Positions 51,197 through 64,000 of a stretch of 64,000 nt of DNA are shown here, in pieces. Numbering within the stretch: position 1 is the first letter of the stretch; the number at the start of each line of letters is the position of its first letter. The notes beneath the pieces were generated by a model. That model was not told the origin of the DNA. It saw only the letters and a list, made by a program, of their open reading frames with translations, and searched no databases. Origin of the DNA: Labilibaculum antarcticum (GTDB lineage Bacteria > Bacteroidota > Bacteroidia > Bacteroidales > Marinifilaceae); assembly GCF_002356295.1 (NCBI RefSeq), contig NZ_AP018042.1, positions 124,001-188,000 of the forward strand. The letters run 5' to 3'. Made by a program: the position numbers and the translations under genes.

Positions 51197-52735
51197 TTAA
51201 GGATTATACAAATCAGGCATCTCTCCATTTGTAATAATCTGTTCCCGATTACTACCATCAGGATCCATAATCCAAATACTCTTTACTCCTTCATTATCAT
51301 TGAGCACATTCATGAACACAATTTTACCACCAGTCTCTGTAAATCTAGCTTGAAGATCGTTTGTCCCTGCGGGTTTATCATCACCAGATAAATCAACAAA
51401 ATTGGTACCATCAATATTTACGCTATATATTCTTGCATTCAATTGTCTGCCTTTATCAGACTCAAAAAGTGAATCCAAAGAAAAAATCACTTTAGTACCA
51501 TCTGGTGAAAAGTACGGGTTTGAAATTGTTCCTTCCAAATTATCTACTAATAAAAATCGATTAGATCCATCTGGATCCATTAAATAGATTTCGTTATCAT
51601 ATGGCTTCTCGCCTTGTGTAAGAACAGCAATTTTCTCCTTTGGATCATTATCAAACTGATCTGTCCAGTCACAATCTGTAAAGTGACGATTTACCGGAGC
51701 ATCATCAATTTTATTTTCACCTGTTCCATTATAATTGATAGTATAAAGATCTCCATAAAATCCATAAAGAATTTGATCTCCCTCAGGAGACCAAACAAAA
51801 CCTGTTCCGTTGTTGTGATAACTAGCTACAGGTTTGTCGGTCACTTTCACAACATTCTTCCCTTTGGTATCCATCGTGTAAATATGGTATTCTCCGGACT
51901 TATTAGAGGCATATGCAATCAACTCTTCATTTGGCGAAATTCTAGGGGAAACTTCACTTCCTCCATCCTTTGTCAATCGAACCAAATGATTATCAGCTAA
52001 ATCCCATGAGAAAATATCTCTAGATCCCAAAGTATCTTTCACAAATAAGTAACCATTCTCGGGGTAATCTTCTATTGTAAATCGCCATTTCTCCCCTTCA
52101 ACTTCATCCAACTGTTTATTTCTAGCGACAATTTGCCATTCATAGGTTTGTTCAAATTTCAGATTTTGAACAGTAAAAGTTGTATCCAAGATATTTGAAG
52201 CAACCTTTGTACCATTCACATCACTTGCACCTTCAAAAATAATAACATCAAAGCGCAATGTATCACCATTTTCTGTTTCTCCATTCTTCCAAACTAGATT
52301 TACTTTGTTTGGAAGTTTAGTTTGATCATTCTGTATATCTAATGGTGAAACATATGTTATATCATCAGGAATCTTTGAATCAAGAGGTGCTACTTGCATA
52401 ATCACCTGCATTACCACCTCTTGTGCTTCGCGAACCGAAATACTTGTACTTACAGCAGTATAGTCTTCCTTTTTGGCACTAACCGTGTAATCACCAACGA
52501 GTACTTCATTTAATTCAAAATACCCTTCCTCATTAGTTGTTACGGATGTAGTTCCTGGATTAGTTGTTATAGTAACTCCTTCCATTGGCAAGCTTCCATT
52601 CTCTTCGGAAGTTTTCACAATACCACTTATCGAACCAAATAAATCCGGATCAATGGTACTTTCATTACAAGAAAAAATAATAGCAGACAGACAAAGTAAT
52701 ATGATAGGTCTGCGGAGTAGGTAGAATAGTCGCAT
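51197..52735 (-). CDS. Lipoprotein with regulatory-like domain and TolB-type propeller
   Basis: A 512-residue lipoprotein (SAIIFSCNES, Cys23). Domains: carboxypeptidase-regulatory-like fold (about 34-110, GSISGIVKTSEENG, NEEGYFELNEVLVGDYTVSA in part), a fibronectin-type domain (about 125-225, PNKVNLVWKNGETENGD, FEQTYEWQIVARN), then a TolB/PD40-type beta-propeller (about 230-510, SPRISPNEELIAYASN, MDPDGSNR repeated twice). It lies 30 bases after the CsgH-like gene, so it probably ends the curli transcript. It may bind or anchor the amyloid at the surface; no such role is established. Confidence 0.85.
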   Translation of the reverse strand: MRLFYLLRRPIILLCLSAIIFSCNESTIDPDLFGSISGIVKTSEENGSLPMEGVTITTNPGTTSVTTNEEGYFELNEVLVGDYTVSAKKEDYTAVSTSISVREAQEVVMQVIMQVAPLDSKIPDDITYVSPLDIQNDQTKLPNKVNLVWKNGETENGDTLRFDVIIFEGASDVNGTKVASNILDTTFTVQNLKFEQTYEWQIVARNKQLDEVEGEKWRFTIEDYPENGYLFVKDTLGSRDIFSWDLADNHLVRLTKDGGSEVSPRISPNEELIAYASNKSGEYHIYTMDTKGKNVVKVTDKPVASYHNNGTGFVWSPEGDQILYGFYGDLYTINYNGTGENKIDDAPVNRHFTDCDWTDQFDNDPKEKIAVLTQGEKPYDNEIYLMDPDGSNRFLLVDNLEGTISNPYFSPDGTKVIFSLDSLFESDKGRQLNARIYSVNIDGTNFVDLSGDDKPAGTNDLQARFTETGGKIVFMNVLNDNEGVKSIWIMDPDGSNREQIITNGEMPDLYNP

Positions 52736-52765: not shown

Positions 52766-53146
52766 TTAAGAATTATCTCCATGGAAAACAACAGAATCTT
52801 TAGCTACGATCAAGTTATCATGATAAATTAACAATTTAGCAATTAATTCATCGTCTTTTCTAAGATTCATTCTCGACTCTGAAAGAGAAATAATCTTATT
52901 CAAGGGAGCAATAAATGCACCTTTTTGCAAAGAGTTGGAACTTCCCGACTGACTCTTTTTTGTTACGTTAAGAACGTAACTTAATGACAAGGAGTTATCC
53001 CCATTATTTTGAAACATTGCCTTTACTGACAAATTCTGGACTTCCCCTTCAATATCAATCCATGCTCTTACAGGAAACTCCTGTTTAAGCTCTGATGTGT
53101 TACTACAAAAGCACATGATAATAACCATGATAATTTTAGGGAACAT
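52766..53146 (-). CDS. CsgH-like curli assembly protein
   Basis: A 126-residue exported protein. The short hydrophobic N-terminus ends in MCFCSN; a weak lipobox is possible but not standard. The mature part looks like the small beta-sandwich of CsgC/CsgH: LSLSYVLNVTKKSQSGSSNSLQKGAF (in part) and LSESRMNLRKDDELIAKLLIY match the alternation in CsgH proteins, which keep curlin from forming fibres in the periplasm. Identification rests on this pattern and on the location between curlin genes and the propeller lipoprotein; no cysteine pair is present in the domain. Confidence 0.68.
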   Translation of the reverse strand: MFPKIIMVIIMCFCSNTSELKQEFPVRAWIDIEGEVQNLSVKAMFQNNGDNSLSLSYVLNVTKKSQSGSSNSLQKGAFIAPLNKIISLSESRMNLRKDDELIAKLLIYHDNLIVAKDSVVFHGDNS

Positions 53147-53275: not shown

Positions 53276-53299
53276 GGGATGCCCATAAATGGGCACCCC
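53276..53299 (-). terminator. Terminator of CsgB-like gene
   Basis: Stem gggatgccca / tgggcacccc with a TAAA loop (one mismatch), 24 bases after the stop, preceded on the left by an A-run that gives U on the minus strand. Confidence 0.75.
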
Positions 53300-53322: not shown

Positions 53323-53856
53323 TCACAAACCACTTTTTATTATTACGTTCATTCCAGTTCCAACCTGCGTTACGATCATTCCGTTGTTTGCTAATCCGGA
53401 ATCAATCTGCAATTGGTTGTCATTACCAGCCTGAGTAATTTCAAAGCTCTTATTATTCCCAATAACTTCTTGTTGCAATGAATTATTATCGCCATTTTGA
53501 TGAACGCTAGTGGAAATGTTTTTCCCTTGAAGTAAGGATTCAATGGAGTTTCTATCTCCTGATTGTAATATTTCCAAGAGATTTAAATCCCCTTTTTGTA
53601 TTGCCTTAATCAAGTTCCCCATTCCAACCTGCTGAATAATGGCCAACTGTTCCCGACTAAATTGATTTAGAATCAATTCGTTTCTATCTCCTGATTGCAT
53701 TGCCAAAACAACATTTTCGGCATTTATAGCATCAACGGCACCGTAATTCAATTGGTTTAGAATCTGATCCTCAACATTATAATTTTGTCCTACTAGATTA
53801 CCGAAGCAAAATACGAACAGAGCTAACCATAAATATTTCCGAATAATTACTGACAT
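53323..53856 (-). CDS. Small curlin-repeat protein (CsgB-like)
   Basis: A 177-residue exported protein; signal peptide to about residue 23 (FGNLVGQN). It has about ten curlin half-repeats with the Q-x-G-x-x-N pattern, partly degenerate: LAMQSGDRNELILNQ, IQKGDLNLLEILQSGDRN, HQNGDNNSLQQEV, ITQAGNDNQLQID. The small size and less regular repeats fit a nucleator/minor subunit (CsgB role) rather than the main fibre protein. It has its own terminator; its promoter would lie in the short gap after the large curlin at 53933. Confidence 0.8.
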   Translation of the reverse strand: MSVIIRKYLWLALFVFCFGNLVGQNYNVEDQILNQLNYGAVDAINAENVVLAMQSGDRNELILNQFSREQLAIIQQVGMGNLIKAIQKGDLNLLEILQSGDRNSIESLLQGKNISTSVHQNGDNNSLQQEVIGNNKSFEITQAGNDNQLQIDSGLANNGMIVTQVGTGMNVIIKSGL

Positions 53857-53889: not shown

Positions 53890-53907
53890 ATCCCGCCGAA
53901 GCGGGAT
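53890..53907 (-). terminator. Terminator of the 613-residue curlin gene
   Basis: Perfect 7-bp GC-rich stem atcccgc / gcgggat with a CGAA tetraloop, flanked by A-run and T-run, so it works in either direction; 25 bases after the stop. Confidence 0.88.
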
Positions 53908-53932: not shown

Positions 53933-55774
53933 TTATGGAGTTACAAAGATAGTCCCTGCGTTTCCTTGCTGAGTTACAGCAAAGTTATCGTTACCATCCT
54001 GAATAACCAAACCATAATGATCATTACCAACTTGCTCAAGGAATGAGTAGTTATCATCACCATACTGATAAGTTAAAGCTGTATTATCATCACCTGTTTG
54101 GATAATGAAAGCTTGGTTTCTAGCACCATCCATTTGAGCAATAACTGCAACGTTACGGTCACCATTTTGCAAGATGTCTGCTAAACTTTCTTCTTGATCG
54201 TACTGAAATACCCAACCTCTGTTGTTATCACCTCTTTGCTCTACAAAAGCTTCAGATTTTTCTCCATCAAACTGACCAACAAATGAGAAGTTATATTCTC
54301 CTTTTTGGAAAATATCAGTTTTATTTTTCTTTCCACCTAGCTGATCAATAATTGCTGTATTACTATGATCTTTCTGAGTGATTTTAGCTTTATTTTTGGT
54401 TCCCCACAATTGAGAAATATAAGCAGTTTGCAAATATCCATATTGCTTCACAGTTGCGTTGTCACCAGTTCCATACTTTTGAGTTACGTCTGCAAAATGT
54501 CTTTCTCCTTTTTGGAATACTTCAACATCTCCACCTGATTCATGAATCTGCTCAACAAAAGCATAATTAGCTGTACCAATTTGATTAGTTCTAGCAACAT
54601 TATGGTCTCCACCAATTTGAACTGTACGAGCGCGATTAGCTTCTCCATTTTGCATGATGAAAGCCTCATTAGCTAAACCACCTCTTTGGAAGGTTGAAGC
54701 CATATTCCGAAAACCATTTTGATGAATATTAGCAAGATTAGCATATCCACCTAATTGCAATGTATTAGCTCTGTTAAAAGCAAACAATTGAGTAATTGAG
54801 GAATGATTAAGCTCTCCACCAAACTGTTCTGCACGAGCGTTATTTCTCAATCCCCATTGGTTTATGAAAGCTGAGTTATAAGCACCTCTTCTTTGTAGTA
54901 CGCTAGCACGATTAGCTCGTCCTTGTTGCATAATATCAGCAGAAGTAAAAATAGGTAAAATTTGAGTAATGTTAGCTGAATTCCATGCTCCCATTTGCCA
55001 AACTGATGCAGTACTCAAAGCACCATACTGAAGAATATCACTATTATTAAAACGTCCCATTTGATTTACCATAGCCATATTGTTATGGTTGGCTTGAAGA
55101 ACTGTAGAATAATTAGCTAATCCCATTTGCATAACAACTGCAGCGTTCAAGAAGTCATACTGCGTAATGTTAGACATGTTAAACATACCCATTTGAGCTG
55201 TAGAAGCCATATTCCATGAGCCCATTTGTGTTGTACGAGCTATGTTATGAAGTCCCGATTGTGAAACCAGAGCAGAGTTAAAGAATCCCAACTGGTCAAC
55301 ATATGAAACATTTAACACACCCATTTGAGAAACAGATGCTGTATTTCCAACAAGAAATTGATTAACCGATGACATATTAAATAGACCAACTTGACCTACC
55401 ATAGCACTATTATCATCTCCAAATTGAAGAATTCTAGAAATGTTATGAAGTCCCATTTGCCATACTGCAGCAGAATTTAAAAATCCTATTTGATCAACGT
55501 ATGAAACATTTAAAACTCCATCTTGAGTAACATTGGCCATGTTATTCATATAGAATTGATCCACATAGGAAATATTTAAAAGTCCTGTTTGATCAACTGT
55601 TGCATCATTAAACCAGCCTAATTGGTTAACATCACTGCTATTGAACCAACCCACCTGAGTAACACCAGCCGTGTTCAGCCAACCAGTTTGGTTGACATCC
55701 GAATTGTTCCCCTGTGCAAATGCAGAAGATACTGCAAAAACAACAGCTACAAATAAAAATAAAAATTTTTTCAT
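53933..55774 (-). CDS. Giant curlin-repeat protein A2 (613 aa)
   Basis: A 613-residue exported curlin with signal peptide to residue 20. The mature part is about 52 half-repeats of 11-12 residues (pattern N-x-x-x-V-x-Q-x-G), compared with 10 in E. coli CsgA. Two zones differ: residues 22-315 have turns with large hydrophobics (GWFN, GFLN, MGMF) and contain no Lys or Glu at all; from residue 316 on the repeats are charged and resemble normal curlins (QNGDRN, QTGDDN). A block of about 28 residues recurs exactly 66 residues apart (86-114 and 152-180). The last residues are GTIFVTP. It has its own terminator and its leader resembles that of the other curlin. Confidence 0.92.
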   Translation of the reverse strand: MKKFLFLFVAVVFAVSSAFAQGNNSDVNQTGWLNTAGVTQVGWFNSSDVNQLGWFNDATVDQTGLLNISYVDQFYMNNMANVTQDGVLNVSYVDQIGFLNSAAVWQMGLHNISRILQFGDDNSAMVGQVGLFNMSSVNQFLVGNTASVSQMGVLNVSYVDQLGFFNSALVSQSGLHNIARTTQMGSWNMASTAQMGMFNMSNITQYDFLNAAVVMQMGLANYSTVLQANHNNMAMVNQMGRFNNSDILQYGALSTASVWQMGAWNSANITQILPIFTSADIMQQGRANRASVLQRRGAYNSAFINQWGLRNNARAEQFGGELNHSSITQLFAFNRANTLQLGGYANLANIHQNGFRNMASTFQRGGLANEAFIMQNGEANRARTVQIGGDHNVARTNQIGTANYAFVEQIHESGGDVEVFQKGERHFADVTQKYGTGDNATVKQYGYLQTAYISQLWGTKNKAKITQKDHSNTAIIDQLGGKKNKTDIFQKGEYNFSFVGQFDGEKSEAFVEQRGDNNRGWVFQYDQEESLADILQNGDRNVAVIAQMDGARNQAFIIQTGDDNTALTYQYGDDNYSFLEQVGNDHYGLVIQDGNDNFAVTQQGNAGTIFVTP

Positions 55775-56119: not shown

Positions 56120-57751
56120 TTAGAATCCGTTATACTGACTTACGGTTACGCTATTGCCATTACCATACTGAGTAACTACAGAAGAGTGACCATAACCACT
56201 CTGGTAAACACGAACAGTATTGTTACTGCCAATTTGTTCTGTATAAGACACATTTCCGGAACCAACTTGCAGGGTATTTGCTATATTATTTTCACCCAAT
56301 GCCTGTATTGAAACGGCTTCATTATCGTCCCCATATTGCTGAATTAAAGCATAATTATTGCCAACTTCGTACTGACCAATGGCAGCAGCATTACCATTAC
56401 CAACCTGAATTATTCCAGCGAAAGTATTGCTGGTTTCATACTGCTCTATATATGCGTAGTTTTCATTACCAATTTGTGCAACACCTGCAAAACTGCCAGA
56501 ATTGGACACCTGTAGAATTTCTGCCTCATTATATTTACCATCTTGAAGAATATATGCATTATTAAATGAACCGTCAACCTGAGTAATCACAGCATCATTA
56601 CCTTTCCCATACTGCTCAATCTCAGCGGCATTAAATGCACCACCTAATTGATATACTGAAGCTTCGTTCATTTTACCCCTTTGGCTTACATCTGCAGAAT
56701 TAAAAGCACCACCATCCTGAATAATTTCTGCAGTATTCCCTTTTCCTCTTTGTGTAAGTAAAGCACTATTAAAAGCTCCATCAAGTTGTGCAATCATTGC
56801 AAGATTACTGCGTCCTCTTTGGTTTACATCAGCAGAGTTGAAAGCACCACCAACTTGCTCAGTTACGGCAACATTTTTCTTTCCTTGCTGCTTGATCGTT
56901 GAATTATTAAAAGCACCACCATACTGTCCTGCATATGCTTCATTTCCTTCCCCTTCTTGGTTTACATCAATATCATTTAAAAAACCGCCAACCTGGTATG
57001 TCCAAGCAAAGTTTTCTTTGCCTTTCTGCATAACAACAGAGTTATTTCCCATTCCGAAGAACTGATCAACCAAGGCAGTATTCATTTGACCTCTTTGAGA
57101 AACTTCAGCATTATTTAAAAGACCAGCAAACTGATTAACAAGAGCATAATTACCATATCCATGCTGATCAACTAAGGCACTATTTTTATAGGTGAGAGTT
57201 TGATATACATCAGCTCTATTTAAAACACCCCACTGACTAACTGTAGCTTTATCAAATCTTCCACCTGACTGCATAATATTAGCTGAATTTAAAAAACCAA
57301 ACTGAAATACATCAGTAGTTTCAGAATGACTTAAAAACTGACTAATTGTAGACAGATTCAAAAATCCAATTTGCTCAACATAGGCCTTGTTGTAAGAACC
57401 CCAAAACTGAGAGATATAAGACGCATTGAATCCTAACTGATCAACATCAGCAAGATTATAATTACCTACCTGTAACGCTTTTGAGAAATTAGTCATAGAC
57501 TGAGTCGCATGATACTCGTTCCCCACTCCATATTGATCTAAAAATGACATATTAAAGAAGCCAGACTGCGTAACTCCCGCGATATTATCATCACCATTTT
57601 GATAAATATCATTAATATTAAAAACGCCAACTTGTTGCACTGTTGCAGCATTGTCATTTCCGTCTTGGTTAATATTGGATTGATTAATTTGGGCAAACGA
57701 AACAAGCCCAGTAAATAAAACTGCTAAAAACGTGAATAAAATCTTTTTCAT
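56120..57751 (-). CDS. Giant curlin-repeat protein A1 (543 aa)
   Basis: A 543-residue exported curlin with signal peptide to about residue 20 (FTGLVSFAQ). About 46 half-repeats of 11-12 residues, with Gln and Asn in the usual places (QVGVFN, QNGDDN, QSGYGH). In the middle (about residues 240-370) alternate half-repeats carry GGAFN or DGAFN, forming a 23-residue higher-order repeat, five to six copies, which points to recent internal duplication. The C-terminus QYNGF ends without a cap. It is the first curlin gene after csgG and is likely a main fibre subunit, exported through CsgG. Confidence 0.92.
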   Translation of the reverse strand: MKKILFTFLAVLFTGLVSFAQINQSNINQDGNDNAATVQQVGVFNINDIYQNGDDNIAGVTQSGFFNMSFLDQYGVGNEYHATQSMTNFSKALQVGNYNLADVDQLGFNASYISQFWGSYNKAYVEQIGFLNLSTISQFLSHSETTDVFQFGFLNSANIMQSGGRFDKATVSQWGVLNRADVYQTLTYKNSALVDQHGYGNYALVNQFAGLLNNAEVSQRGQMNTALVDQFFGMGNNSVVMQKGKENFAWTYQVGGFLNDIDVNQEGEGNEAYAGQYGGAFNNSTIKQQGKKNVAVTEQVGGAFNSADVNQRGRSNLAMIAQLDGAFNSALLTQRGKGNTAEIIQDGGAFNSADVSQRGKMNEASVYQLGGAFNAAEIEQYGKGNDAVITQVDGSFNNAYILQDGKYNEAEILQVSNSGSFAGVAQIGNENYAYIEQYETSNTFAGIIQVGNGNAAAIGQYEVGNNYALIQQYGDDNEAVSIQALGENNIANTLQVGSGNVSYTEQIGSNNTVRVYQSGYGHSSVVTQYGNGNSVTVSQYNGF

Positions 57752-58112: not shown

Positions 58113-59576
58113 TTATTCAATAGGAGCACCTTTACTTACTGCTTTTTTCCGTATTTTTTCTTTTCTATTCTTATTCTTTTTATTTCGATCCCAAATCTTA
58201 TCAAAATAAAAGTTTAGGCCAACTTTGCCTTCCCAGAAATAATCATTAAAATTCCCTTGCTCTTTCCCATCTATATTATCATTAAAAATATAATGATTCA
58301 ATACGGAAAAATTCAATCCGATTCTATCATTAAATATAAATTCTATTCCAGCACCATACAAGGCTTGGGTATAAATAGAATTTGAAATATCAATGGTATA
58401 TACTGATTTATCATGTTCCGAAAACACACCCAAACCACCTTCAATATAAGGTGTCCAATCTTTATAAGGTAATAATCGATATTTAGCTGTTACATCCAAA
58501 GAATTATATGTCTTTTGAAAATAATCCGTTGTTGCTAAATCCCCTCTCCCAAAATTAAGTCCAAACTGCAAGGCCGATTGGGTATCGTATAATAAAGACA
58601 CCCCAGCCATAACTTCCAACTCTGTATGCTTATAATCTCCCATATATAACCATGACCCAGCATTAAAACCTAAACCAAACTTACGACGGCGAGGAGTAAT
58701 TAACTGGTCGAAAAAATCTGCTCCTTGATTATCTTCTTTATCCTCAACATATTTAGTAATAACATCCGAATTAACGTCCTCTGGATTCTTTAAGTCCCAA
58801 AGACCTTCTATCACACCTTCGATAACCAAAGACTCAACAGCCTTCTCTATTGCCTCTTTAACCGCCATTTCAGACGGCTCGTTATAAGTAAAGCCAACTT
58901 CAGCTTCAAGAAGACGTTTAAATTTCACATATCGAAAAATACTAGCATCCAATTTTTGGGAAAGAATCATTTTTGAAGTATATACAGTCTTTAAAATTCG
59001 ACCATTACTGGTCGATATTGCACGAAGATATACTGTAACCCTATCTTGTCGGTACTGCCCGGAAGCACCTGCACCAAAGTATTTCAAACCAGCACCACCT
59101 GTTAATACATTTGCATCGTAACTTATAACCCCACCTTCCAGCACCAATCCTGCAAAAAGTAGTGGAGGCAGCAATTGTGAACTTTCGTTTTGACCTGCAT
59201 AATTTGCACGACTTGATCGTATAATTTTTCGTTCATTGAGTAAATTAGATAAGCCTTCCCTTTCAATAGGAATAAACCAACCCGATTCTTCAATTGCTTT
59301 TAAAAGTATAGATGTAGTTCCTTGCGTTACAGCAGTTGACCAGCTCGCTCCAGTCTCAGAAGGTTTATATTGTCCGGTTTGGTCGCGAAATTTATAAACA
59401 GCAGCAACTATCTTCTCTTTTGGCAAAGGTAAATTAGCCAAACTTTTCCTAGCCGGTGTTTCAGCGCCAATTTCTGCTCTTTGCTCGCTTAAAGGCTGAT
59501 TAAAATAAGGAACACATCCATTAATAGAAATCAATAACAATAAACAACAAGTGTAGTGGAGTATATATCTAAGCAT
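58113..59576 (-). CDS. csgG: CsgG curli secretion pore with C-terminal barrel-like extension
   Basis: A 487-residue outer-membrane lipoprotein (SINGC, Cys21). Residues 45-290 match E. coli CsgG closely (DQTGQYKP, GWFIPIEREGLSNLLNERKIIR in part, FRYVKFKRLLEAEVGFTYNEPSE in part, GLWDLKN), so it should form the nine-fold secretion pore. The constriction loop differs: E. coli FKPYPASNFSTAV is YKPSETGASWSTAV here, one residue longer, with Trp79 where E. coli has the pore-lining Phe. The last about 195 residues (from RRKFGLGFNAGSWLYMGD) are a strand-rich OmpA/porin-like barrel domain absent from E. coli CsgG (277 residues), ending in a Lys/Arg-rich tail. Third gene of csgE-csgF-csgG. Confidence 0.95.
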   Translation of the reverse strand: MLRYILHYTCCLLLLISINGCVPYFNQPLSEQRAEIGAETPARKSLANLPLPKEKIVAAVYKFRDQTGQYKPSETGASWSTAVTQGTTSILLKAIEESGWFIPIEREGLSNLLNERKIIRSSRANYAGQNESSQLLPPLLFAGLVLEGGVISYDANVLTGGAGLKYFGAGASGQYRQDRVTVYLRAISTSNGRILKTVYTSKMILSQKLDASIFRYVKFKRLLEAEVGFTYNEPSEMAVKEAIEKAVESLVIEGVIEGLWDLKNPEDVNSDVITKYVEDKEDNQGADFFDQLITPRRRKFGLGFNAGSWLYMGDYKHTELEVMAGVSLLYDTQSALQFGLNFGRGDLATTDYFQKTYNSLDVTAKYRLLPYKDWTPYIEGGLGVFSEHDKSVYTIDISNSIYTQALYGAGIEFIFNDRIGLNFSVLNHYIFNDNIDGKEQGNFNDYFWEGKVGLNFYFDKIWDRNKKNKNRKEKIRKKAVSKGAPIE

Positions 59577-59610: not shown

Positions 59611-60033
59611 TTAATAACTTGGAATTACGACATTGGAAAAATTTCCATTCGTGATATCCTGAATATTAACAGTAACTCCACTCGCATCTTCAAACACATC
59701 AACCTTATAATTTCCCAAATTATACGACCCTGCCTCTAAGTCTCCACTATCTCCAAAAATTTGATTCACCAAGCGACTAGATAATTGATTAAGGATTTGC
59801 CTATTCAAGTTCGACTCAAAATCATCCAACGGATCTGAATTTAATGCACTATCAGAATTGGGATCTTCAATTCTGTTTTGCTGAGTAGCCGAATTTAACA
59901 ACCAATTGTAATTGTATTGATCACCTCCAAAAGATGAGTTTATTGGCTTATAAACAAAATCCTGAGCCTTCGATTCGTTTGGCATTAACAAACACAAAAA
60001 AGACAAGACAAATACTATTTTAATAATATTCAT
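59611..60033 (-). CDS. csgF: CsgF curli assembly factor
   Basis: A 140-residue exported protein with signal peptide to about residue 23. After it comes FVYKPINSSFGGDQYN and WLLNSATQQN, which match E. coli CsgF (FRNPNFGG, FLLNSAQAQN); this N-terminal part inserts in the CsgG channel as a second constriction. The C-terminal half holds the helical neck and a small beta-domain (VDVFEDASGVTVNIQD). In E. coli CsgF couples secretion to nucleation by CsgB. It lies between csgE (17 bases) and csgG (34 bases). Confidence 0.93.
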   Translation of the reverse strand: MNIIKIVFVLSFLCLLMPNESKAQDFVYKPINSSFGGDQYNYNWLLNSATQQNRIEDPNSDSALNSDPLDDFESNLNRQILNQLSSRLVNQIFGDSGDLEAGSYNLGNYKVDVFEDASGVTVNIQDITNGNFSNVVIPSY

Positions 60034-60050: not shown

Positions 60051-60557
60051 TCAAAACAATCCCGTTCCTTGTTGATCTTCATCTTCAAGTTGGGCCTTCA
60101 TTTTTTCATAATTATCTAAAAATTGCACCGCCATTTGATTAGCATATTGGGACATTTGCTCCAAAACTTCATAACGCGGTTGCACTCTTTGCTTAAACAC
60201 TTCAGTTTCATTTACAAAAACAGTAATTTGAGTTGCCACCCCAGGTAAAATCATTTCTTTAATTAAAATGGTGAAATTTTTCGCCTTTTCTGGCGCAACC
60301 CAAATGGAAAAAAACATATCATAGAAATCACGTCCTACTTTGGTCATTGTTTCATCCATAACCAATCCATCAATTTCCATATCAAAATTTGGATCATTAG
60401 CCATTTTATTTTCATCAACTATATCATCCAATGCTTGTTGAAGGATCTTTAATGTTTTTACAGAATCACTTTCAACTTCCTGCCCCTTCATTTCTGGTAA
60501 TGAAACAAAAAACATAAAAAGGAAAATAAATATAAAACTTCTATAAAAATATCTCAT
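60051..60557 (-). CDS. csgE: CsgE curlin-specificity factor
   Basis: A 168-residue exported protein with signal peptide to about residue 26 (LPEMKGQE). The core EIDGLVMDETMTKVGRDFYDMF (in part) matches E. coli CsgE (EVPGLLTNHTVSSIGHDFY); the downstream TQITVFVNETEVFKQRVQPR is the second conserved block. CsgE caps the periplasmic mouth of CsgG and selects curlins. It has an extra N-terminal helix of about 30 residues. First gene of the csgE-csgF-csgG unit; its promoter should lie in 60558-60733. Confidence 0.93.
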   Translation of the reverse strand: MRYFYRSFIFIFLFMFFVSLPEMKGQEVESDSVKTLKILQQALDDIVDENKMANDPNFDMEIDGLVMDETMTKVGRDFYDMFFSIWVAPEKAKNFTILIKEMILPGVATQITVFVNETEVFKQRVQPRYEVLEQMSQYANQMAVQFLDNYEKMKAQLEDEDQQGTGLF

Positions 60558-60733: not shown

Positions 60734-61753
60734 TTAAAATTTAGGACATCGAATAGCTCGTATTCTTCTTTTCTTTCTTAAAAAATGAGTTCCTGAACAA
60801 GACGATTTTGCCGTTCCCAATAAATAACTAAGTGATATCTCATGAGCTCCAGAATTGGTTTTAACCAAATTAGAGACCACATAATCATAGGAATAACCAA
60901 TTCTTATTTTTTCCGTTTGGTAACCAATTAAAATAATGAATGCATCAAAATCGAAAGATAGGTTGTGTCGAAGCCAAGTTCCAACAACCCAATTATTTCT
61001 GGACAAATACAATCCGTAATTTATTTGCTCGAAATCTAACTGTCGTTGATACAATATATTTGGCGAAATTGAAAAATTGCTCTTCATTAATCCACGAGAA
61101 TAACCCATGGGAATATTTGCACCCGCATGCACTGTATATTTACGCGGTAAAACCGCTATGTTCTGTTCTGAATTGAATGCTTCATTAGGCTCTGAAAGAT
61201 GATCAATTACACCTCCAAAATAAAGACTCTTATAATTCACGATGATCCCCATCGAAAAATCCCAGTACGATTTACTCAAACTACTTGGCTGAACTTCTCT
61301 CGAAGGATAAATAACACCATACAATGGATCGATCATATCCGAAAACACAAATGATCCCCAGTCCAATTTCCTTTGAATATAGCCGGCTTTGAATCCAATA
61401 TTCATTGATAAATTCCTATTGACATCCAATGAATATGAATACATTGCTGAAGCTGTTGTTGTTTTGATCGCTCCTTGTCCCTGATTATCCTGAAGTATTA
61501 ATAGTCCTACTCCCCCATTCATTAAATCAACGTATTGATCGAAAGAAGCACTATAAGTAACAAAAGGGCGATTGTTCTGCGGCCATTGATTACGATACGA
61601 CATTCCTAATGTTGGAACATATTCTGATCCGGCAAACGCTGGATTAAGGTAGAGTCTATTCGCATAAAACTGAGAGAACTCAACGTCCTGAGCCTTGACT
61701 AGTGAAGTCAAAAGCAAACAACAGATGATATGAATAAATCTCCATTTTACCAT
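60734..61753 (-). CDS. PorP/SprF-family T9SS membrane protein
   Basis: A 339-residue outer-membrane protein of the PorP/SprF family. Signal peptide to about residue 21 (LLTSLVKAQD), then the diagnostic VEFSQFYANRLYLNPAFAGS (in part), and a barrel of about 14 strands. In T9SS these proteins help export and attach type B substrates at the surface. The start codon is one base after the CHU_C gene stop, so the two are translated together. The C-terminus (SCSGTHFLRKKRRIRAIRCPKF) is unusually basic and does not end in a barrel-like strand. Confidence 0.92.
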   Translation of the reverse strand: MVKWRFIHIICCLLLTSLVKAQDVEFSQFYANRLYLNPAFAGSEYVPTLGMSYRNQWPQNNRPFVTYSASFDQYVDLMNGGVGLLILQDNQGQGAIKTTTASAMYSYSLDVNRNLSMNIGFKAGYIQRKLDWGSFVFSDMIDPLYGVIYPSREVQPSSLSKSYWDFSMGIIVNYKSLYFGGVIDHLSEPNEAFNSEQNIAVLPRKYTVHAGANIPMGYSRGLMKSNFSISPNILYQRQLDFEQINYGLYLSRNNWVVGTWLRHNLSFDFDAFIILIGYQTEKIRIGYSYDYVVSNLVKTNSGAHEISLSYLLGTAKSSCSGTHFLRKKRRIRAIRCPKF

Positions 61754-61754
61754 T

Positions 61755-64000
61755 TTATCGAATTAAAGAAACATTACCATCCTTACGAGCTTTCCCATTA
61801 ACGATCAGGATCCAAACATATACACCTGTATTTGCTTTCTGTCCCTTATAGGTGCCATCCCAACCTTGACCTAAATCAGTAAATTCATAAATTAATTCGC
61901 CCCATCGGTTGTATATATACATCTCAATATCTTCACCTGCAATATCACCTGTTATTGATGGTCTAAAAGTATCATTAACACCATTTCCATCAGGAGTAAA
62001 AGCATTAGGAACAAATATTCGATATCTATCCATGTACACCGTAATTGAATCTACTCCTACACAACCGTTCATATCTGTATATTTCAACAAATATTTTCCT
62101 TCAGCAGTAACCGTATAGGTTGAGCTGGTAGTTCCGTCTTGCCACAAATAATTGCCAGGCAAAAAGCGGATATTTATTGAAGGTGCTAATATTTTAGATT
62201 CTGTGTAGAATATTGTGGTATCCATTCCTAAATCAAAAATGGGCTTGTCGTGAACTATAAAATCAACCATTGATGAATTAACACATCCATTTTCAACTTT
62301 CGCAAAATAACTTTCAGCTGAACGAATCGTTAGGTCACCCGGATTTACGACAGGAATAAGTAAATCAACATCTTTATACCAACTAACAATAACGGATGGA
62401 GTAGTGCTTATTTGACTATTAAGTGTAGTTAAGTCATAATCTGCAACCTCCCCATTCCCAACAACATCCTCACACAATTCAAGACCCAAATCAATTGCTT
62501 CAGGAAGTGGATTCACAATGAAATTCAAGCGTCCAGAATTTTCACATCCACCCGGATTAGTAGCTTGGGCGTAATATGAACTTTGATTAAAGATGGTTAC
62601 ATCAAGAGGATTCACCACAGGAATATTTAATTGATCATCTTCAAACCATTCTACATTTGCAACAGGATCATTACTTACCTGCAAATTATAATCGGTCAGG
62701 TTTATTCCTGATAATGATGACGAACCAAAATTATCTTCACAAACGACTTCATTTACTGTTGATGTTTGAGGTAATGACGAAATATCATATGATAGTTCTG
62801 CGAAATTATCGCAAGTACCGTCCCAAACCCGAGCATAATAAATATCTCCATCAGAAACTAAAATATTCTGAGCATTTAAAACTGGATTTGAATAGCTTAG
62901 ATCAAAATACCAGATAATTGTACTGGTTAATGATGATGAAATAGAGGACTCGTAATTATTTAAGTTTTCGCCGACTACCTGTCCCGTATTAAAAATATCT
63001 TCGCATAAAGCAACAACATGATTTTGAGCATCAGGAGATGCATTAATGATAAAATCAATGCGCCCGACATTACTCTCAGCACCAAAACTTACCCGAACAA
63101 AAAAACGATCTCCGTTAGAAACGCTTGTATTCGTTGGAGTGGGAACCGGTAAAGTCAAACCTGTATCAAAAAACCATTCTTTTAGAGTTCCTGGATCATT
63201 ATTTACAGCTGATTCTAACTGAGAAAAATCATAGGAGGAGAATGTGCCGCTTCCCGTTATGTCTTCACACAATTCAACTTGCAGATTATTCGCTTCCGGC
63301 AAATTGCGAACATTAAATATTAAAACCGCCGTATTTTGACAATTACCATTATCTACTAAGGCATAATAATCATCTCCTGTAATAACATTTACATTATTAG
63401 GAGTTGCAACTGGAATTGTTATCAAGGCATCTTCATACCATGATATAGAATTAGTTGAAATAAGGGGATTATAGGCTACTAAATTTAGACCTGAAGCCAA
63501 TCCGGTACCAAAACTATCTTCCCACACATCAATAGTTTGATCAGTTGCATTAGGTCGTGAATAAACTGTATAAGTTACTGCAGCAACATTAGTGTTAAAC
63601 GCATCACTTACAGCGGCGAAAAATCGATCCCCGTCATTAACAATTACATTTGCAGGATCAGCAATTGCATTAACAGGCAAACCACTTGGTTCTGTGGGCC
63701 AGTCAAAATACCATACAAAAGTATCCCCATTTCCTTCGTTAATTTGATTCTCCAGCAAACTTAAATCAACTAAAGCAGTTCCTGTTCCTTCTACATCTTC
63801 ACATACAACAGGAAAAGCATTTCTTGCTACTGGAGTATTTACAACCGAAAAATCGACTACAGCAACATTCGAACAAGTTCCATTCGACACGAGAGCATAG
63901 AAAACATCCCCATCGGTGACATCATGATTCGTTGGATCTGAAACCAAAGTAGTGAGACCAGAATCTAAATACCAATCAATAGAATTTGACTGTCCTCCTA
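61755..64000 (-). CDS. Multidomain T9SS type B cargo protein (CHU_C, partial)
   Basis: The frame is open to the right edge, so the N-terminus is missing; a TTG at 63945-63947 is only an internal codon. At least 748 residues are visible: six to seven repeats of about 95 residues, each with a CED...GTG start, a WYxD stretch and a GDxFYAxVxNG stretch (Ig/PKD-like adhesin modules), then the C-terminal gliding-motility-type sorting domain (FVPNAFTPDGNGVNDTF, IYNRWGELIYE, GVYVWILIV). This is a large surface adhesin secreted by T9SS. It is translated together with the PorP/SprF-like gene and lies directly before the curli genes. Confidence 0.92.
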   Translation of the reverse strand, partial: GGQSNSIDWYLDSGLTTLVSDPTNHDVTDGDVFYALVSNGTCSNVAVVDFSVVNTPVARNAFPVVCEDVEGTGTALVDLSLLENQINEGNGDTFVWYFDWPTEPSGLPVNAIADPANVIVNDGDRFFAAVSDAFNTNVAAVTYTVYSRPNATDQTIDVWEDSFGTGLASGLNLVAYNPLISTNSISWYEDALITIPVATPNNVNVITGDDYYALVDNGNCQNTAVLIFNVRNLPEANNLQVELCEDITGSGTFSSYDFSQLESAVNNDPGTLKEWFFDTGLTLPVPTPTNTSVSNGDRFFVRVSFGAESNVGRIDFIINASPDAQNHVVALCEDIFNTGQVVGENLNNYESSISSSLTSTIIWYFDLSYSNPVLNAQNILVSDGDIYYARVWDGTCDNFAELSYDISSLPQTSTVNEVVCEDNFGSSSLSGINLTDYNLQVSNDPVANVEWFEDDQLNIPVVNPLDVTIFNQSSYYAQATNPGGCENSGRLNFIVNPLPEAIDLGLELCEDVVGNGEVADYDLTTLNSQISTTPSVIVSWYKDVDLLIPVVNPGDLTIRSAESYFAKVENGCVNSSMVDFIVHDKPIFDLGMDTTIFYTESKILAPSINIRFLPGNYLWQDGTTSSTYTVTAEGKYLLKYTDMNGCVGVDSITVYMDRYRIFVPNAFTPDGNGVNDTFRPSITGDIAGEDIEMYIYNRWGELIYEFTDLGQGWDGTYKGQKANTGVYVWILIVNGKARKDGNVSLIR

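Follow-up and report, generated by a model that had tools for sequence, protein, structure and literature searches.

A curlin with a hydrophobic-edged first half and a charged second half in the csg locus of Labilibaculum antarcticum and other Marinifilaceae

We know of no zones within CsgA, the curlin of E. coli. This protein has 4-5 repeats in about 152 aa (Dueholm et al. 2012, PMC3521004), and the same authors reported that curlin size varies greatly and suggested that additional copies could serve to adjust the properties of the fibre. Curli have been described as mostly hydrophilic fibres in which the core is conserved and the surface free. According to Sleutel et al. 2023 (PMC10192328), curlins span 4 to 62 repeats, each rung adds 4.8 Å, and polar or charged residues predominate at surface positions, which should make most curli hydrophilic. 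They also described R15.5, a long curlin of Pontibacter korlensis built of centrosymmetric N-x-A/S-x-V-x-Q-x-G-x-x half repeats with a shorter second arc near the C terminus, which has an acidic surface grid with charge packing and whose curli form ordered side-by-side arrays through specific surface contacts. Taylor et al. 2016 (PMC4838910) reported that CsgC and CsgH act by charge and named a Bacteroidetes CsgH sub-family, and another functional amyloid has been reported to increase biofilm hydrophobicity (PMC4595789).

Here we describe a curlin, denoted A, in a window of 64,000 nucleotides of the L. antarcticum genome (contig NZ_AP018042.1, positions 124,001 to 188,000). Its gene lies at 53933..55774 on the minus strand and encodes 613 aa. 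Like E. coli CsgA, A is made of the curlin repeat and has csgE, csgF and csgG at its locus, but it has 26 repeats. It shares with R15.5 the half-repeat type and the shorter second arc near the C terminus, whereas in place of an acidic grid it carries hydrophobic arcs across its N-terminal half. In the open-licence literature, we found no paper that pairs Labilibaculum or Marinifilum with curli.

Curlin A and the csg genes around it

Protein A is a real, conserved curlin. It matched PF07012 with 241.7 bits, above the curated cut-off of 20.7, in 12 stretches, and follows the half-repeat pattern N-x-Psi-x-Psi-x-Q-x-G-x-x of 11-12 residues. PF07012 was its only Pfam match at E ≤ 0.01, with no match to a family model of chaplin, hydrophobin or BslA-type coat proteins. 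Both the CsgB (281, cut-off 165) and the CsgA (187, cut-off 160) equivalog models were passed; since model scores add up over many repeats, A is not assignable to either class. A PDB sequence search gave a single match, 8c50 (E 3.1e-51), entitled "Curlin associated repeat-containing protein", which we take to be R15.5. Foldseek of A against the PDB returned no match at E ≤ 0.001, which we regard as a limit of the comparison for a long repetitive solenoid.

A dynamic-programming parse of strand positions placed 52 anchors in A, corresponding to 52 strands, 26 repeats and 51 arcs with a spacing of 11 or 12, in agreement with the roughly 52 half-repeats of 11-12 residues counted in a first-pass annotation of the sequence. 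Twenty-six repeats lie within the published range, and the length of A is thus unremarkable. The inward positions of the half repeats are mostly A/S and V/I. Residues 1-21 (55712..55774, minus strand) were recognized by eye as a signal peptide and include a helix at residues 2-16 in the AlphaFold2 model. This model, built from six aligned sequences, had a mean pLDDT of 91.8 and a pTM of 0.82, with regular strands in both zones described below; in ten-residue blocks, the pLDDT was 86-97 over residues 21-600 and 70-71 at the C terminus. The hydrophobic first half, whose solenoid fold had been marked for checking, is thus predicted to form regular strands as well.

On the minus strand, the genes are ordered as a CHU_C type IX cargo gene, PorP/SprF, csgE (60051..60557; PF10627), csgF (59611..60033; PF10614), csgG (58113..59576; PF03783, PF13505), a second curlin gene B (56120..57751), A, a small curlin (53323..53856), a CsgH-like gene (52766..53146), and a gene for a protein with a CarboxypepD_reg domain and a propeller. 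The CHU_C and PorP/SprF genes (60734-63947, minus strand) lie directly upstream of csgE. CsgG has 487 aa, including a C-terminal outer-membrane-barrel-like domain, and is apparently a pore-barrel fusion. The PF13505 match on CsgG was at the cut-off in the window, and of the related loci L032 and L035 it was just over the cut-off in one and just under it in the other.

Scanning named genomes, we found five related loci (L031-L035), from Labilibaculum sp. MAG11, L. filiforme and three Marinifilum. A and B were present in all five. The block from PorP to A and the CarboxypepD_reg/propeller gene also recurred in all five, as judged from domains in L032 and L035, where PorP, csgE, csgF and csgG domains were found, and from the ORF layout in L031, L033 and L034. 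By layout, a long ORF precedes PorP in these five loci too. Taken together, sequence, locus and structure prediction support A as a curlin subunit belonging to a csgEFG locus, probably exported by CsgG and folded as a 26-rung beta-solenoid.

Zones of A and the position of its hydrophobic residues

Lys occurs in A at residues 2 and 3 and next at residue 422, and the first Glu is residue 316, leaving 294 residues after the signal peptide (22-315) without either; the counts given in the first-pass annotation were exact. In 20,000 shuffles of the residues of the mature protein, the longest K/E-free run was 221, compared with 294 in A, and the longest distance to the first Lys was 331, compared with 400; none of the shuffles reached either value. 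The base composition of A shifts only modestly between the zones. The shuffles and the composition by codon position exclude chance or base composition as the source of the K/E gap.

Three parts can be delimited in the mature protein, all on the minus strand. Zone 1 (residues 22-270; 54965..55711) has 11/11 spacing, two hydrophobic edges and no K/E. The transition (residues 271-315; 54830..54964) is Arg-rich, likewise lacks K/E and begins the 12/11 spacing at QILPIF. Zone 2 proper (residues 316-613; 53936..54829) has arcs whose charge rises toward the C terminus. The spacing is 11 for arcs 1-22, alternates between 12 and 11 from arc 23, and is 11 again in the final arcs. The hydrophobic turns listed earlier (GWFN, GFLN, MGMF) are present. 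A switch to GDDN/GDRN turns at residue 316 had also been described, but the change of character along A is graded, not abrupt. The best change point for arc hydrophobicity follows arc 29 (near residue 350) and that for K/E follows arc 30, charge becomes steady in the arcs no earlier than arc 40 (residue 467), and one GDDN turn already occurs at residues 119-122, within the hydrophobic half. This half contains Asp and Arg and is therefore not charge-free.

Pooled over the 14 distinct A orthologues described below, zone-1 arcs were 72% (even arcs) and 74% (odd arcs) hydrophobic and 8% and 4% charged, while zone-2 arcs were 31% and 41% hydrophobic and 42% and 36% charged. Hydrophobic residues made up 22-69% of outward strand positions in zone 1 and 25-55% in zone 2. 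The edges of zone 1 carry many Trp, Phe, Leu and Met residues, whereas its flat outward faces are polar (Asp, Thr, Ser, Asn) and do not exceed those of zone 2 in hydrophobicity. The contrast between the zones thus lies in the arcs and not in the outward faces, and the first half of A has two greasy edges rather than greasy faces.

We propose, with somewhat less than even confidence, that A, a true curlin of the csg locus, builds fibres with sticky bands by which they pack laterally or attach. At 4.8 Å per rung, a subunit of 26 rungs would be ~12.5 nm long, with ~11 rungs bearing Trp, Phe, Leu and Met on both edges followed by ~15 increasingly charged rungs. If the subunits join head to tail like known curli, hydrophobic-edged bands would recur at intervals of 12.5 nm (11 nm for the short form described below), with charged, hydrated bands between them. 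The hydrophobic bands could act as sticky patches through which fibres join by their edges to give ribbons or bundles, or bind hydrophobic surfaces, and the charged part would keep the fibre wetted. Such fibres should show an axial repeat of 11 or 12.5 nm and edge-to-edge packing. The R15.5 arrays reported to form by surface contacts (PMC10192328) are a precedent for lateral packing of A. However, the outward faces of zone 1, which are not especially hydrophobic, count against the sticky-band reading.

The same faces also bear on the idea that zone 1 inserts in, or forms, a water-repelling coat or lipid layer. The two edges rich in large hydrophobic residues would suit such a layer, and the report on biofilm hydrophobicity (PMC4595789) provides an analogy from another functional amyloid, but the flat faces are polar, and no membrane-type segment was seen by eye in A other than the signal peptide. 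We therefore consider this layer very unlikely; the first-pass annotation had suggested that a part of A sits in a hydrophobic layer, and nothing that we tested supports it.

Conservation of the two zones and comparison with other curlins

Of 59 relatives' genomes searched, 15 had matches and 14 of these an A orthologue, two of which were identical proteins, and the scan of named genomes added one new A sequence. The final set contained 14 distinct proteins with 60-89% identity to A of the window in best alignments. All came from one family, Marinifilaceae (Labilibaculum and Marinifilum), and they do not represent 14 independent origins. Retention of the two zones in orthologues had been named as a check, and hydrophobic arcs come first and charged arcs last in all 14, which excludes an artefact of one genome. 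The K/E count was 0-4 in the N half and 12-27 in the C half. Strict absence of K/E is not a conserved trait, since four such residues occur in the N half of L005 and three each in those of L012 and L014.

Fourfold sites were 43-68% identical between A of the window and its orthologues. With zone-1 arcs remaining 72-74% hydrophobic, the pattern has outlived much silent change. The 227 replacements at hydrophobic zone-1 arc sites, counted over rows that share ancestry, comprised 181 hydrophobic, 36 other and 10 charged residues, while single-base changes would be expected to give 233 hydrophobic, 72 other and 44 charged of 349. Given the shared ancestry of the rows, this substitution pattern is suggestive only.

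The orthologues occur in two length forms, of 612-613 aa (5 of 14) and 546-548 aa (9 of 14). The difference of ~66 aa equals six half repeats, or three rungs, and falls within zone 1. All 14 have 16 or 22 zone-1 arcs followed by 29 zone-2 arcs, indicating that the zones vary as modules, by whole rungs. Residues 63-128 and 129-194 of A in the window are 59% identical (63% at the DNA level), an old 66-aa duplication in the long form. In the curlin tree, the A proteins formed a single group (100/100) with short forms at two places among long ones, suggesting that the long form may be the older one and may have been shortened twice, although several forks of this tree are weak and the program warned of long branches that meet.

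For comparison, we parsed 132 distinct curlins after dropping ORFs that were cut by locus ends, shorter than 200 aa, or had fewer than 12 anchors; the 122 with at least 16 arcs were ranked and 10 were left unranked. A survey of the phylum found curlin matches in 48 of 395 genomes (own genome included), and stretches were taken from 34 of the 47 others. In the order, matches were found in 6 of 295 genomes (own genome included), and all five others were used. Beyond Bacteroidota, the comparison covered plasmid-borne curlins only, with 11 of 36 matching records used, nine of them from Pseudomonadota.

The A orthologues took ranks 1-14 of 122 for the N-to-C contrast (arc hydrophobicity minus charge), and for each of them 0 of 300 arc permutations was as strong; these tests take arcs as independent, and the orthologues share ancestry. 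Of the 108 non-A curlins, 6 had p < 0.01 in this contrast, and ranks 15-21 were all Marinifilaceae B or C copies. For the longest K/E-free run, 13 A orthologues held ranks 1-13 of 132, and L012 was 33rd. Hydrophobicity of both edges over 14 arcs was 0.67-0.81 in A, compared with at most 0.60 (L113) outside the Marinifilaceae family and 0.41 among plasmid curlin-like ORFs of Pseudomonadota, Hymenobacter and Spirosoma (17 scored, two too short for the 14-arc score). Hydrophobic arcs are not unique to A, since by the same measure one B (L019) reached 0.75 and one C copy (L074) 0.76.

Median arc hydrophobicity was 0.49 in the 14 A, 0.48 in 13 B and 0.44 in nine C proteins, but 0.23 in 96 others, and the N-half arcs were the more hydrophobic in 14/14 A, 13/13 B, 8/9 C and 31/86 others. 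Hydrophobic arcs are thus a habit of the Marinifilaceae curlin family, and A takes this trend furthest and combines it with a charged tail. The B and C-type curlins belong to the same protein family and have a gradient of the same sign; unlike A, they have K/E spread throughout and a weaker split. Searching titles and abstract openings in the open-licence literature, we found no two-zone or edge-polar curlin, in line with the earlier remark that none like A had been described, but some B and C copies do have hydrophobic-edged N-terminal stretches.

The family trend raises the possibility of tolerated drift, in which the arcs are loosely constrained, the curlins of the family expanded from hydrophobic-arc repeats, and the split as such is without function. 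High arc hydrophobicity in all three family groups, the same-sign gradient in B and C, and the old duplication in long A all fit this explanation, and the genetic code alone keeps most hydrophobic codons hydrophobic (233/349). However, drift would not be expected to keep a strong split in all 14 A proteins at such divergence, nor so few charged replacements in zone-1 arcs (10/227, against 44/349 from single steps). We judge drift unlikely, and less likely than the sticky-band reading.

Partner curlin B and the other neighbours of A

Gene B encodes 543 aa (PF07012, 245.8 bits) and adjoins A on its upstream side. AlphaFold2 predicted regular strands for B with a mean pLDDT of 92.5, and its N-to-C gradient is weaker than that of A. 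Arc composition and a parity scan delimited an edge-polar (Janus) zone at residues 207-414 (56510..57133, minus strand); in this middle part, one edge is hydrophobic (GGAF-type) and the other Lys/Arg-rich in all 13 B homologues. When arcs 17-34 of the 13 proteins were pooled, the 12-residue arcs were 62% hydrophobic and 17% charged, with F, L, M, Y or W as the terminal residue in 80 of 116, while in the 11-residue arcs 58% of residues were charged and 22% hydrophobic, and the penultimate residue was K or R in 93 of 117. The parity scan (60 permutations each) gave p ≤ 1/60 in 13/13 B, 0/14 A, 1/9 C and 10/86 other curlins, showing that edge polarity is not confined to B. It is also seen in short curlins (228-229 aa) of other Bacteroidota (L100, L108, L117 and L120).

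The strand count of B is 46 in 11 of the 13 homologues, among them those of all five species with long A, and 48 in two. That A varies by 66 aa while B keeps 46 strands alongside long A argues against a strict side-by-side register of the two proteins, and a fixed register is disfavoured.

Fibres with a water-repelling end or side had been suggested for A in the first-pass annotation. An end fits A at the level of the single subunit, but a side fits the middle of B better. If A forms sticky bands, B would have a single sticky side, given the pairing of a hydrophobic with a Lys/Arg edge across its middle. The ordered surface of these proteins, with hydrophobic edges and then charge along A and opposed edges in the middle of B, seems to be new. 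A conserved pair of this kind, with A polar along the axis and B polar across the width, would imply evolutionary patterning of the fibre surface, and such curlins may be natural templates for amphiphilic protein fibres. A bolder version makes A and B the two components of an amphiphilic amyloid, in which A contributes alternating hydrophobic and charged blocks along the fibre, as in a block copolymer, and B one greasy and one basic edge, giving ordered ribbons or sheets and a self-adhesive or water-repelling biofilm; we consider this decidedly doubtful.

The genes downstream of A are relevant to a different explanation, that the split reflects the order of folding or secretion. The hydrophobic N half would be fast-folding or nucleating, and the charged C half would be a gatekeeper, or a handle for a charge-guided CsgH chaperone. 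The charges of A are concentrated in its C half, CsgC and CsgH reportedly act by charge (PMC4838910), and the locus has a CsgH-like chaperone gene (NF041112, 35.8 bits, cut-off 35). A CsgH-like ORF was also present in L033 (39.1 bits), L034 (37.2 bits) and, below the cut-off, L035 (26.9 bits); none was found at the L031 or L032 loci, yet the split of A is kept there. In addition, the hydrophobicity lies in the arcs, whereas it is the core that drives the packing of amyloid. The small degenerate curlin (PF07012, 31.3 bits) is a candidate nucleator. It is whole in L031, L034 and L035, L032 has a 68-aa remnant-like ORF, and L033 has no small curlin and no ORF of at least 40 aa on the relevant strand. 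Being whole in only three of five named loci, it is doubtful as a required nucleator, and the absence of the small curlin and CsgH from some loci makes the chaperone-handle explanation slightly weaker. We think a folding or secretion role quite unlikely and keep the sticky-band reading as the preferred one.

A hairpin scan found terminator-like hairpins after csgG, A and the small curlin, with 11 in the region compared with 2.5 in shuffles; promoter-like sites in the curli region showed no excess over chance. The hairpin 3' of A (53890..53907, minus strand) and another at 53276-53299 flank the small curlin gene and may lower its expression. The CsgH-like protein of the window was compared with a small protein beside a Hymenobacter curlin and showed no likeness worth the name. 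Adjoining the curli genes is the gene for the CarboxypepD_reg and PD40-propeller protein (51197-52735, minus strand). A 37% identical protein is encoded beside curlins on a Hymenobacter plasmid (L132:6032-7558), suggesting that the CarboxypepD_reg/PD40 gene may be a curli-linked accessory of Bacteroidota.
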